Assembly (NCBI RefSeq): GCF_003261635.1
Contig: NZ_QFXK01000009.1
Coordinates: 434,001 to 498,000, forward strand
Length of the DNA: 64,000 nt
Source: Kribbella monticola
Lineage (GTDB): Bacteria > Actinomycetota > Actinomycetes > Propionibacteriales > Kribbellaceae
Reading direction: 5' to 3'
Shown here piece by piece: positions 28,126 to 50,541 of this stretch; position 1 is the stretch's first letter, and the number at the start of each line of letters is the position of its first letter. The notes under the pieces are model-generated. The model was not told the DNA's origin. It ran no database searches and saw nothing but the letters and a program-made list of their open reading frames with translations. The position numbers and the translations under genes were made by a program.

Positions 28126-29283
28126 CTAGTCGGTGCGAAGTGTGATGGTGGCGGCGATCAGGAGCACCGAGGTTGTGGCGATGGCGGCGATAACCGCGGA
28201 GACTCCGATCCAGCTGACTGTGAGGGGGAGCAGGAGGATGACGGCAACGCAGCTCAGCAGGAAGACGGGTGGGATGACCGGCTCGTCGACCAGCGGAGCG
28301 TGCACCGCCCACAGCAAGGTGAGGAAGACGGCGACCGGGATGGCGACGGCGTACGTGACTTCGAGTGGCGGCGCCTCGACGTGGTGGCCGGTCTGCCCGA
28401 CAGCGACCTCCAGGCCCGCGCCGAGGGCGGCTAGCGCGGCGAAGATGCCGTAGTGGCTGTAGCCCCACAGGTAGGAGCGTTCGCGGCGCGCGCTGAGGGC
28501 CTCGCCGGCCGGCTCGAGGAAGTAGAGCCACCAGAGCGCGAACAACAAGACGAGTGACGAGATCGCGACGGTGATGAACGCCCCGCTGATCCCGGTCGCG
28601 TCCAGGGCGCCTTGTACGCCGGTCGCGGCGGCGAGGACGCTCTCGCCGAGCAGGATGATCGTGAAGAGGCCATAGCGCTCGGCGATGTGGTGTGGGTGCC
28701 AGTTGGTGGGCGCGGTGCGTTCGGCCCAGCGCGGGACGAGAAGATCGAGGACGGCCAGCACCAAGAACAACGGAAGCTGGGTCGACGGTGGCAGCGCACC
28801 GGTGTCGAGCAGGACGAGGCGGAGCACCCATCCCACCTGGACGACGGCGATCCCCGCCGCGTAGCGGAACGCCGTACGCCGGCTGGCCGGGTCCTCGATT
28901 CCGGCTCGCACCCATTGCGCGACCAGGGCGATCCGCATGATCACGTAGCCGATCGTGATGGCGCGGAAGTCCGAGTGGTCGGCCGCCGCCGGTACGCCGG
29001 CAGCCAGCACCAGGACGCCCGCCATCTGCAGCATCGTGAGCAGCCGGTAGGCCACGTCGTCGGTGTCGTAGGACGAGGCGAACCAGGTGAAGTTCATCCA
29101 GGCCCACCAGATCGCGAAGAACACCTGCAGGAACGGCACGATCGAGACCAGCGCGTGCGCATCGGCGATCTGGTGCGCGAGCTCAGCCGTGACGGCCGCG
29201 ACCGCGACCACGAAGGTCAGGTCGAACAGCAACTCGAGCTGGCTGGACACGCGGTGCGGTTCGTCGATCGGCCGTGCGCTCAT
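28126..29283 (-). CDS. LtrA-like low-temperature-requirement membrane protein
   Basis: A 385-residue membrane protein with about ten to eleven helices. The family start SSQLELLFDLTFVVAVAAVT and WWAWMNFTWFASSYDTDD are diagnostic of LtrA (PF06772), first linked to cold growth in Listeria; the biochemical role is not known. RERSYLWGYSHYGIFAAL comes in the second half. Start ATG 29283 has a poor ribosome site; GTG 29289 is an alternative. Transcription probably begins at the ECF41-type promoter at 29350-29376, about 60 bases upstream, which would place it in an ECF41 regulon. Confidence 0.87.
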   Translation of the reverse strand: MSARPIDEPHRVSSQLELLFDLTFVVAVAAVTAELAHQIADAHALVSIVPFLQVFFAIWWAWMNFTWFASSYDTDDVAYRLLTMLQMAGVLVLAAGVPAAADHSDFRAITIGYVIMRIALVAQWVRAGIEDPASRRTAFRYAAGIAVVQVGWVLRLVLLDTGALPPSTQLPLFLVLAVLDLLVPRWAERTAPTNWHPHHIAERYGLFTIILLGESVLAAATGVQGALDATGISGAFITVAISSLVLLFALWWLYFLEPAGEALSARRERSYLWGYSHYGIFAALAALGAGLEVAVGQTGHHVEAPPLEVTYAVAIPVAVFLTLLWAVHAPLVDEPVIPPVFLLSCVAVILLLPLTVSWIGVSAVIAAIATTSVLLIAATITLRTD

Positions 29284-29349
29284 CGGCACCCGGATCCGGA
29301 TCCTGGCGTTTGCTCCGGGCAAGGGTCTTCTCCTGTCGTCGACAGCTGA

Positions 29350-29376
29350 GACAGCACAGCGACCACCACTGTGACA
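29350..29376 (-). promoter_or_regulatory. ECF41-type promoter for the LtrA-like gene
   Basis: On the minus strand TGTCACA (29376-29370) is followed after exactly 16 bases by TGTC (29353-29350) and then TCAG. The published ECF41 sigma consensus is TGTCACA-N16-CGTC. It faces away from the matching plus-strand promoter at 29407. Confidence 0.75.
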
Positions 29377-29406: not shown

Positions 29407-29433
29407 TGTCACAGGCTCCGGCGCTGTCCGGTC
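29407..29433 (+). promoter_or_regulatory. ECF41-type promoter for the NAD(P)-binding oxidoreductase
   Basis: TGTCACA (29407-29413), 16-base spacer, GGTC (29430-29433), then TTAGCTG. It fits the ECF41 pattern except for the first base of the -10. Expected transcript start is near 29440, giving a leader of about 48 bases to the ATG at 29488. The leader opens with a possible GTG-ACC-GGG-CGG-TGA minigene at 29441-29455. Confidence 0.75.
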
Positions 29434-29487
29434 TTAGCTGGTGACCGGGCGGTGACGAGAGCCGCCGGCGGACAGGAAAGGTGTGCC

Positions 29488-30228
29488 ATGAAGATCGTGG
29501 TTATCGGCGGTACGGGCCTGATCGGGTCGAAGCTGGTCGCGAAACTCGGCGAACACGGACACGACGCGGTGGCGGCCTCGCCGAACACCGGTGTGAACAC
29601 GATCACCGGCGAGGGACTCGAGGCCGCGCTGGCCGGCGCGGACGTCGTGGTCGACGTGTCGAACTCGCCCTCGTGGGAGGACGACGCCGTGATGGAGTTC
29701 TTCCGGACCTCCACCAGCAACCTGCTCGCGGCCGAGGCCGCCGCGGGCGTCGGCCACCATGTCGCGCTGTCCGTGGTCGGGACCGAGCGTCTCCAGGAGA
29801 GCGGCTACTTCCGGGCGAAACTGGCGCAGGAGAAGCTGATCGAGGATTCCTCGATCCCGTACTCGATCGTGCGCGCGACGCAGTTCTTCGAGTTCGTGCC
29901 GAGTATCGCGGACGCGGCGTTCGACGGGACCGCGGTCCGGCTGGCGCACGTGTTCTTCCAGCCGATCGCCGCCGAGGACGTGGCGCAGGCCGTCGGCCGG
30001 GTCGCGGTCGGCACCCCGCTGAAGGGACAGGTCGAGGTCGCCGGCCCGGAGCGCTTCCGGATGGACGAGTTCTTCCGCACAGTACTTGCCGAGCGCAACG
30101 ATCCGCGCGAGGTCGTCACCGACCCCGACGCCGTGTACTACGGGATCTCGCCGACCGAACGCGCCCTCGTCCCCGACGACGACGCGACCCTCGCCGAGAC
30201 CACCTACGCCGCCTGGGCCGCCAAGTGA
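29488..30228 (+). CDS. NmrA-like NAD(P)-binding oxidoreductase
   Basis: A 246-residue atypical SDR. The cofactor loop GGTGLIG is at residues 7-13, and the glycine-rich site and lack of YxxxK fit the NmrA/ycf39 group, which includes redox sensors and quinone reductases. FRAKLAQEKLIEDSSIPYSI in the middle is typical of that group. GGAAAGG precedes the ATG. Known ECF41 targets include such oxidoreductases, so this gene and the promoter at 29407 agree. It is followed after 24 bases by a small acidic protein gene. Confidence 0.85.
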   Translation: MKIVVIGGTGLIGSKLVAKLGEHGHDAVAASPNTGVNTITGEGLEAALAGADVVVDVSNSPSWEDDAVMEFFRTSTSNLLAAEAAAGVGHHVALSVVGTERLQESGYFRAKLAQEKLIEDSSIPYSIVRATQFFEFVPSIADAAFDGTAVRLAHVFFQPIAAEDVAQAVGRVAVGTPLKGQVEVAGPERFRMDEFFRTVLAERNDPREVVTDPDAVYYGISPTERALVPDDDATLAETTYAAWAAK

Positions 30229-49412: not shown

Positions 49413-49439
49413 TGTCACAGCACGCGGGGGTGAACTGTC
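49413..49439 (+). promoter_or_regulatory. ECF41-type promoter for the ferritin-like gene
   Basis: TGTCACA (49413-49419), 16-base spacer, TGTC (49436-49439), then TTAGCTG. It matches the ECF41 pattern with one change in the -10. From 49437 the sequence is identical for 19 bases to that after the 29407 promoter. A GTG at 49447, right at the expected transcript start, is in frame with the gene. Confidence 0.75.
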
Positions 49440-49500
49440 TTAGCTGGTGACCGGGTGGCGCTTGGCGTCACCGTTCTTCGATCACCGGAGTGAAACCCTT

Positions 49501-50541
49501 ATGGATCAGCAAGAGCGGACCGCGGTGCTGGCGCCGATCAGGACGTTGGAGAGCCTGCGGGAGCATCTGCAATGGGCGATCGAGTTGGAGCACGCCACAC
49601 TGCCGCCCTATCTGTACGCGTTGTACTCGCTCGACGAAGCGCGCAATCCCGACGCTGTTCAGGCGGTGGCCGGGGTCTTCGTCGAGGAGATGATCCACCT
49701 CGCGCTGGCGGCCAACCTGCTCAACGCCGTGGGCGGGAAACCGCGACTGGACAAGCCGGGAATATTGCCGCCTCATCCTCGGCGGCTGCCGCACGGCGAT
49801 CGCGACCTGGAGTTGTCGCTGGTGCCGTTCGGGCCGGAAGCGCTCGAGATGTTCCTGCGCCTCGAACGCCCCGCGCCGCCCGGCGGCCCGGCCGAAACGG
49901 ATCGGTACGAGACGATCGGGCAGTTCTACAGCGCCATTGAGGACGGGCTGCGGTACCTGTGCACCGAACTCGGCGCGGAGGCCGTCTTCTCCGGCGATCC
50001 GGCGCGCCAGGTGTCGGCGGGCCCGTTCCGGCACAGTGGCGGCCACGTGGCCGCGGTCAAGGATCTGGAGTCGGCCCTGACGGCACTGGAGGAGATCGTC
50101 GACGAGGGTGAGGGCACCGCCCGAGGTGAGGTCTGGGACGGCGACCAGGACATCTTCCATCCCGACCATGACGAGGTCGCGCACTACTACCGGTTCCAGG
50201 AACTGAAGGTCGGCCGGCGTTACCAGCGCGGTGACACGCCACAGTCCGGTCCGACCGGTGAGGCCGTGCGGGTGGACTTCGAAGGCGTCCGCCCACTGCG
50301 CCACAATCCCCGGTTGGCCGATCACGCGGTGGGCACTCCGATCCGGGTCGCCCAGGAGGATTTCAACGAGACGTACCGCGCGCTGCTCCGGCAACTGGAG
50401 GAGGCCTTCAACGGCCGCCCGGAGCTACTCGGAGCCGCTACCCGCGCGATGTACGGCCTGAAAGCAAAGGCCGTCGCCCTGATGGAGCTCCCGGACGGCG
50501 ACGGCCTCTTCGCCGGACCCACCTTCGAACAACAGCCTTAG
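49501..50541 (+). CDS. Ferritin-like (VioB-C-type) protein
   Basis: A 346-residue protein with a ferritin-like four-helix bundle in its first half. Helix 1 carries Glu30 and His31 (WAIELEHATLPPYLYALYSL), and helix 2 carries Glu62/Glu63 and His66 in VEEMIHLALAANLL, the diiron or dimetal ligand pattern of PF12902. The second half (WDGDQDIFHPDHDEVAHYYR onward) matches the iminophenylpyruvate-dimer synthase VioB only generally. The role may be oxygen or peroxide handling. ATG 49501 is used. The leaderless GTG at 49447 would add 18 residues. The gene is driven by the ECF41-type promoter at 49413. Confidence 0.8.
   Translation: MDQQERTAVLAPIRTLESLREHLQWAIELEHATLPPYLYALYSLDEARNPDAVQAVAGVFVEEMIHLALAANLLNAVGGKPRLDKPGILPPHPRRLPHGDRDLELSLVPFGPEALEMFLRLERPAPPGGPAETDRYETIGQFYSAIEDGLRYLCTELGAEAVFSGDPARQVSAGPFRHSGGHVAAVKDLESALTALEEIVDEGEGTARGEVWDGDQDIFHPDHDEVAHYYRFQELKVGRRYQRGDTPQSGPTGEAVRVDFEGVRPLRHNPRLADHAVGTPIRVAQEDFNETYRALLRQLEEAFNGRPELLGAATRAMYGLKAKAVALMELPDGDGLFAGPTFEQQP

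Follow-up and report, generated by a model that had tools for sequence, protein, structure and literature searches.

Why should two promoters with different spacers and different target genes carry the same 19 bases after the -10 element? The question arises in a stretch of 64,000 nucleotides from Kribbella monticola, here called the window, which holds three ECF41-type promoters, sites A, B and C. Site C, on the plus strand, begins with the -35 sequence TGTCACA (49413 to 49419), the same as the published ECF41 -35 in the sections of PMC3426412 consulted. Next come a 16-base spacer (49420 to 49435), whose last six bases, GTGAAC, occupy the place of a consensus CTGYCC described below, and the -10 sequence TGTC (49436 to 49439). 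TTAGCTG (49440 to 49446) follows as the putative discriminator, recognized by direct reading and from promoters of SDR orthologs. The last element is GTGA (49447 to 49450; consensus GYGA), within which transcription would start at G49449. A hairpin with an 8-bp stem and a 3-nt loop is predicted at 49454 to 49472, near the 5′ end of the mRNA of the presumed target, the gene for a Ferritin-like protein (49501 to 50541, plus strand; PF12902, E = 1.1e-62).

Site A, also on the plus strand, reads TGTCACA-N16-GGTC-TTAGCTG (29407 to 29440) and continues with GTGACCGGG (29441 to 29449), which includes the likely transcription start at G29443 and the beginning of a folding leader. Its presumed target is an NAD(P)H-binding/NmrA-type SDR gene (29488 to 30228, plus strand; PF13460, E = 4.8e-9; PF05368, E = 2.6e-6). 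Site B is a divergent promoter on the minus strand, TGTCACA-N16-TGTC-TCAGCTG (29343 to 29376), with a likely start at 29340; its presumed target is an LtrA family protein gene (28126 to 29322, minus strand; PF06772, E = 6.2e-94 for 28129 to 29286), which in our reading would begin with TTG behind AGGAG. The minus-strand copy of GTCTYAGCTG that had been reported was confirmed: the promoter at 29376 to 29350 bears GTCTCAGCTG at 29352 to 29343. YGA is present at the presumed start in all three sites. In genome G008, the counterpart of site B (L066:7504, minus strand) has a palindromic insert, CTAGTGC-GGGG-GCACTAG, that parts TGTC from TAGCTGTCGAC in the ltrA promoter. This insert is a natural disruption of the extended element.

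A sequence-only reading of the window had noticed that bases 49437 to 49455, after TGTCACA-N16-TGTC at 49413, equal 29431 to 29449, although spacers and genes differ. All of this held: 19 of 19 bases are identical, the spacers agree at 8 of 16 bases, and the targets are a ferritin-like and an SDR gene. The exact 19-mer has only two copies in the genome of 8,025,353 bases, and 13 places match it with up to three mismatches. Three of these, two of them exact, are in the window, where shuffled sequences give 0.02 per window. GTCTYAGCTG alone, with one mismatch allowed, did not stand out from chance in the window (10 matches against 6.6 expected); it did so only in combination with the promoter. 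Outside the block, sites A and C agree at 8 of 16 spacer bases, 8 of 20 upstream bases and 12 of the next 37. The block is therefore no part of a longer copied stretch, and the recent copying of one locus over a greater length, named beforehand as something that would speak against the signal, was not borne out.

In the whole genome, TGTCACA-N16-NGTC occurs at 11 sites. The three in the window continue with TYAGCTG and the other 8 continue differently, five of them next to other ECF41 paralogs (L068, L075 and L076). ECF41 promoters without the extension had been expected to speak against it. They do exist, at 8 of the 11 sites, and, with five beside other paralogs, they suggest that the extension marks a promoter subclass; the signal itself stands. 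Near L068, two ECF41-type promoters diverge (contig C77, L309:3872 on the minus and 4107 on the plus strand); they have a common -35 and the same base at 15 of 16 spacer positions, and differ after the -10.

Nine genes of this genome score at least 194 bits against TIGR02957, which we take to be the ECF41 sigma factor family, and the next match has 123 bits. One of them, L070 (G000:C80:17648-18520), lies outside the window on a contig other than that of sites A to C. It has sigma regions 2 and 4 (PF04542, E = 4.1e-14; PF08281, E = 4e-15), scores 335.4 bits against TIGR02957 (cut-off 323.25), as an ECF41-type sequence should, and has a C-terminal extension that matches SnoaL_2 at E = 2.4e-4 (22.1 bits, below the 27-bit cut-off). 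No extended promoter was found at up to five mismatches in the 3.8 kb of its locus. Sites A, B and C have the -35 TGTCACA and the 16-base spacer of ECF41-dependent promoters. GTC is present in the -10 of all three, preceded by T or G and not by the C of the published CGTC. Site A precedes a COE-type gene (NmrA/epimerase-like SDR), as ECF41 promoters do; sites B and C precede LtrA and Ferritin-like genes instead of a COE or ECF41 gene.

To see which bases are conserved, we took the SDR gene (29488 to 30228) as query and read the upstream regions of 30 orthologs; the motif was not used in the selection. In 29 of the 30, the best ECF41-type match placed the -35 at 66 to 100 bases before the start codon. 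The remaining ortholog, L248, had no convincing promoter (best match 7.5 of 10, no GTC) and was omitted by eye from the column counts; L260, also at 7.5, was retained. Of the 29 promoters, 19 agreed at every one of the ten scored bases and had a 16-base spacer; overall, a spacer of 16 bases fitted 27 and one of 17 fitted two. With the C of GTC numbered 0, the spacer columns were T-8 in 29, G-7 in 28, C-5 in 26 and C-4 in 27 of these 29 orthologous promoters, whose shared descent adds to the conservation. In the -10, position -3 was T in 23, G in 5 and C in 1, and G, T and C were each present in 29. Counts for the putative discriminator were T+1 20, T+2 27, A+3 23, G+4 19, C+5 27, T+6 26 and G+7 27, so that +4 is weak. 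They were followed by G+8 21, T+9 22, G+10 28 and A+11 28, and by C+12 23, C+13 21, G+14 27 and G+15 23. Beyond +15 only A+21 was strong (21 of 29), a position within the loop region of the hairpin in the leader. TTAGCTG was exact in 12 promoters, kept six bases in 7, five in 5 and four or fewer in 5, and YTAGCTG was present in 15. The conserved run is thus CTGYCC in the spacer, KGTC, TTANCTG and GYGA. Conservation beyond the -10, which the earlier reading had proposed to check, does run past the -10 to GYGA, and it also extends upstream into the spacer.

The same element was found in front of unrelated genes. Among 121 distinct motif sites, 82 precede SDR genes, 35 precede genes of 18 other groups, and 4 have no downstream ORF and belong to no group. 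The number of 18 is approximate, with some groups resting on automatically chosen reading frames. From translations read by eye, with no family search, these groups include FAD-type oxidoreductases, a transporter-like protein, ECF-type sigma genes and the ferritin-like family of site C, whose homologs stand behind the promoter also in Kutzneria (L143) and in L213. Because the motif itself served as query for most of these loci, the presence of TTAGCTG there is no proof on its own; we examined the unselected columns, with one vote per group (18 groups, 35 sites; null 95% mark 0.35 bits, 99.9% mark 0.78 bits). Columns -9 to -4 and +8 to +11 all exceeded 0.35 bits, and -7 and -4 exceeded 0.78 bits. 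The conserved bases were C-9, T-8, G-7, Y-6, C-5 and C-4, and G+8, Y+9, G+10 and R+11. Four more spacer columns nearer the -35 (-19, -17, -15 and -12) were above the 95% mark, +12 to +15 were weak, and +16 to +30 were all below 0.35 bits. GACCGG at +10 to +15 was present at 55 of 82 SDR sites against 6 of 35 non-SDR sites. Together these results suggest a common element CTGYCC-KGTC-TTAGCTG-GYGA, while CCGG belongs mainly to the leaders of SDR genes.

TGTCACA-N16-NGTCTYAGCTG was present in 15 of 58 genomes searched, our own included, and a reversed-pattern control gave zero in all. At three mismatches, a search of relatives came near its reversed-pattern control in many genomes and gave no clean count. 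Contigs of public genomes contained the TTAGCTG form in at least 117 stretches. For 80 of these with titles, we assigned the phylum from the organism name: 77 are presumably Actinomycetota and three are not. Genera among the titled matches include Nonomuraea, Microbispora, Actinomadura, Planotetraspora, Kribbella and Catellatospora; the three others are an Acidobacteriaceae bacterium, Edaphobacter and Achromobacter. The SDR promoter with its leader hairpin was seen in the Acidobacteriaceae bacterium (L109, z = -4.8) and in Edaphobacter (L131, z = -1.7), which suggests that the unit was transferred or that its ancestry is deep. In the Achromobacter stretch (L134) and in L198, the extended pattern has CGTC and precedes similar genes. 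An ECF41 gene outside the clade of L070 is near the L134 site. The pattern in these two stretches is possibly due to chance.

Which sigma factor goes with this element? Two collections gave 137 motif loci (117 and 20, some places being in both), and 67 of them hold an ECF41 gene. Of 68 such genes, 66 match L070 best among the nine paralogs, a count that holds duplicates, as six pairs of rows are identical and most likely the same places twice. In a tree of 86 rows, 80 of them different, 58 of 60 motif-linked ECF41s formed one clade with L070 (support 100/97), joined at 99/86 to a sister clade, that of L072; the two outside were L106 and L134. The tree left out 8 of the 68 ECF41 genes, those below 240 amino acids, and took 10 of 20 L072-clade and 7 of 13 L071-clade loci.

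All 15 motif-bearing genomes among the 58, our own included, match L070 at E ≤ 1e-60, and none of the 17 genomes lacking such a match has the motif (Fisher 0.002, or 0.003 excluding our own genome; these and the following Fisher values are inflated by shared ancestry). Of the 41 genomes with a match, 26 lack the exact motif. Among 148 genomes of the class, 3 have the motif, our own included, all within the 8 that have an L070 match of at least 60% identity; 5 of the 8 lack the exact motif, and the reversed-pattern control was zero. Co-occurrence gave a Fisher value of 1e-4 at 60% identity (0.002 excluding our own genome), a threshold set post hoc after the list was seen, and 0.009 with the set of 32 defined by E ≤ 1e-60, which likewise includes all three. 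In one motif-bearing genome, the L070 ortholog was matched in two adjacent pieces (G027:C1:4524294-4525159), as if frameshifted.

Related clades use related but different sequences. In the L072 clade, an ECF41-type match was present at 20 of 20 loci, with GGCTGYC at 14 and CTGGTGA at 16; the -10 was GATC at 12, GGTC at 4 and AGTC at 4. At most of these loci (L275-L294), the next gene has its promoter within the 3′ end of the sigma gene, and the sigma stop codon is part of the conserved GTGA. Coding constraint on this overlap could keep part of the sequence. The L071 clade has a different sequence after its -10. TGTCAC is common to the clades, whose promoters seem to diverge from the -10 onward. 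Three residues of L070, D91, G99 and R102, are the same in 55, 57 and 53 of 57 clade members and are seldom found in the sister clade or among 21 other ECF41s; they were picked from 34 listed clade-typical positions, with L106, L126, L134 and L173 left out. They probably lie in the linker between sigma regions 2 and 4.

The position of the transcription start can be estimated from published promoters. For the SMb20029-rpoE9 promoter of Sinorhizobium meliloti, the mapped start lies 9 nt past TGTCACA-N16-CGTC, according to the sections of PMC3616915 consulted, and ECF41 promoters start at G in two organisms in the part of Wecke et al. (PMC3426412) covered here. Y at +9 followed by a purine at +10 was found at 109 of 117 motif sites. 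The 9-nt spacing of S. meliloti falls on Y+9 G+10, which would place the start at the G of GYGA and make TTAGCTG a discriminator. Transcription of sites C, A and B would then begin at 49449, 29443 and 29340, respectively.

From this start, leaders of SDR genes fold better than expected. Compared with dinucleotide shuffles from +10, 43 dereplicated SDR leaders had a mean z of -1.77, with 34 below -1, against 0.02 and 6 for a coding control of 25 sequences; 12 of the 82 SDR sites, with leaders beyond the range of 30 to 90 bases, were set aside. The 33 non-SDR leaders had a weak signal (mean z -0.63, 12 below -1), and 45-base windows over all 70 leaders had a weaker one (mean z -0.66, 24 below -1). 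A 28-base window slid along the SDR sites peaked at +10 (mean z -1.54, 40 of 58), with another, shallower dip at -8 (mean z -0.85; 27 of 58 below -1) and no folding signal from +18 to +34. We then counted pairs in a 4+4-pair stem; as this stem was taken from the consensus, the observed register has an advantage over slides. In 38 leaders, the share of cells that pair is 75.3%; shuffles give 68.9%, with none of 500 reaching the observed value, and sliding the stem gives 33 to 53%. None of the 500 shuffles reached the observed pair types or covariation score, and the two double-change counts were reached by 9 (7 of 8 pairs changed on both sides) and by 3. The other 4 of the 42 dereplicated leaders are outside the alignment (A1), and the count on all 42 agrees (73.9% pair, 20 double changes; 0 of 500 shuffles as high on either). 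RNAalifold predicted no pair on a plain MAFFT alignment of the 38 leaders, probably because the hairpin varies in position and length. At sites A and C, which differ in genes and stem sequences, the predicted hairpins both begin at the sixth base past the presumed start; the G008 copy of site C has a 7-bp stem.

Several other explanations of the block were weighed. A chance match, or the recent copying of one promoter to the other place, gains something from the rarity of so long a match: only 21 of 2870 pairs of an SDR and a non-SDR promoter (about 0.7%) share a run of nine or more bases beyond TTAGCTG, so the full identity to +16 sits at the tail of the consensus. Background would give such a run at 1e-5, however, and the TTAGCTG promoter stands at unrelated genes across many genera. 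Similarity beyond the block is slight, and a recent duplication of sites A and C was rejected on their flanks and spacer; we regard coincidence or copying as highly improbable. Even less credible is a leaderless start or a shared start codon context, in which GTG-ACC-GGG opens a reading frame, as the sequence-only reading had offered. The GTG frame at 49447 is indeed open into the ferritin-like gene, 18 codons ahead of its ATG, and GTG does prevail at that place in the genus (T+9 in 22 of 29). The frame at 29441, however, is GTG ACC GGG CGG TGA and stops after four codons, and the G008 copy of site C is GTG ACC GGG TGA, stopping after three with its own ATG further on. Over the 121 promoter sites GTG occurs at only 26, against GCG at 61. 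On the reading frames, a leaderless start or short ORF was rejected.

A block kept purely as an RNA leader element, for the sake of the transcript, would account for the SDR leaders, with their folding from the presumed start and a pairing that no shuffle reached and slides fell far below. It would not account for TTAGCTG, which lies upstream of that start and outside the hairpin, or for the unselected GYGA kept at non-SDR sites with their weak hairpin signal, and RNAalifold found no pair on the plain alignment. This makes a leader-only origin very unlikely; the RNA leader element proposed earlier survives as a second layer, a covarying hairpin of SDR leaders from the presumed start, with CCGG in the counted stem. 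A somewhat better candidate, still unlikely, is an operator: a dimeric repressor or activator on an inverted repeat CCGGTC-N9-GACCGG across the -10 and the start. Site A is a perfect repeat, and the dip at -8 in the SDR windows fits it. The arms, though, do not covary: +13 is C at 64 of 80 sites with T-3 and at 30 of 37 with G-3, and A, the partner of T, is equally frequent with G-3 (4 of 37) and T-3 (7 of 80). GACCGG is moreover mostly confined to SDR sites, and TTAGCTG-like bases keep a fixed, gap-free place after the -10 in the promoters selected by gene. For lack of covariation between its arms, the operator at site A was rejected.

We conclude that the block probably forms the 3′ half of an extended core promoter of one ECF41 clade, with the sequence TGTCACA-N8-GCTGYCC-KGTC-TTAGCTG-GYGA. 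The extended element in early transcribed DNA that had been suggested came close. Its conserved part is wider than thought, with CTGYCC in the spacer, TTAGCTG as the likely discriminator and GYGA at the likely start, and it is linked to one ECF41 clade. The analysis shows the conservation, its register, the association with the sigma clade and the hairpin signal with covariation; that L070 directs transcription from sites A, B and C, where it starts, and that the discriminator is read in the open complex are inferred. RNA polymerase carrying L070 would bind TGTCACA through sigma region 4, and region 2 would melt the DNA at KGTC. Contacts that depend on the sequence would then extend across the melted TTAGCTG as far as a fixed start, Y-1 G+1 A+2; they would likely be made by the sigma 2-4 linker with the template strand or by the beta subunit with the opposite strand. 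Past +2, the identity in SDR leaders would have a second cause, a 5′-terminal hairpin of the mRNA, which may shield the transcript or influence promoter escape. Together the three sites would make up one regulon of an SDR/NmrA protein, LtrA and a ferritin-like protein.

More tentatively, the clade may read the whole transcription bubble, its specific sigma 2-4 linker contacting discriminator and start, with D91, G99 and R102 of L070 as candidate residues. In the ECF open complex, according to the sections of PMC6411747 consulted, sigma 2 and beta contact the non-template strand at the -10, beta contacts the core recognition element, and the linker contacts the template strand, which makes a sequence-reading linker plausible. 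The primary sigma discriminator (GGG, read by sigma 1.2) is similar in that sequence between -10 and +1 aids recognition; ECF sigmas differ in having no region 3 and, between sigma 2 and sigma 4, a linker that varies, as described in the same sections.

The ECF41 promoter was derived as TGTCACA-n16-CGTC from 285 sequences, with the conclusion of a single target gene or operon, and its -10 was mapped as TGTT or CGTC (Wecke et al. 2012, PMC3426412, in the sections covered here). The promoters described here share with it TGTCACA, a spacer of 16 ± 1, GTC in the -10, COE genes downstream and an ECF41-type sigma. They are set apart from this two-box consensus by T or G as the first -10 base, by the conserved spacer end, discriminator and start, and by further targets (ferritin-like, LtrA). 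The SMb20029-rpoE9 promoter shares TGTCACA-N16-CGTC and the 9-nt spacing that fits Y+9/G+10; no discriminator motif is mentioned for it in the consulted sections of PMC3616915. An extension of ECF41 promoters was not reported in the titles and abstract openings searched, which did not include the large ECF classification papers, and the consulted part of PMC8103513 has nothing on it.

The ompA mRNA carries a 5′-terminal stem-loop. The hairpin described here is likewise at the 5′ end of the leader; it is tied to one promoter class and is clearest in SDR leaders.

The best reading is that a known class of promoter occurs here in a new form, in which a subclade of ECF41 uses a longer core promoter and serves several genes. 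Sigma factors of the ECF41 type are found widely, and their published promoter consists of two short boxes before a single target gene or operon, as stated in the consulted part of PMC3426412. About 17 further conserved bases suggest how nine ECF41 paralogs that share TGTCACA could keep their promoters apart. The extended pattern is specific enough to predict regulons across Actinomycetota. It makes discriminator reading by an ECF sigma factor directly testable, with sister clades as natural controls. If the bubble is read as proposed, it would be a recognition element undescribed for ECF promoters in the literature examined, and would tie the choice of promoter to a fixed 5′ end at which the leader hairpin begins.
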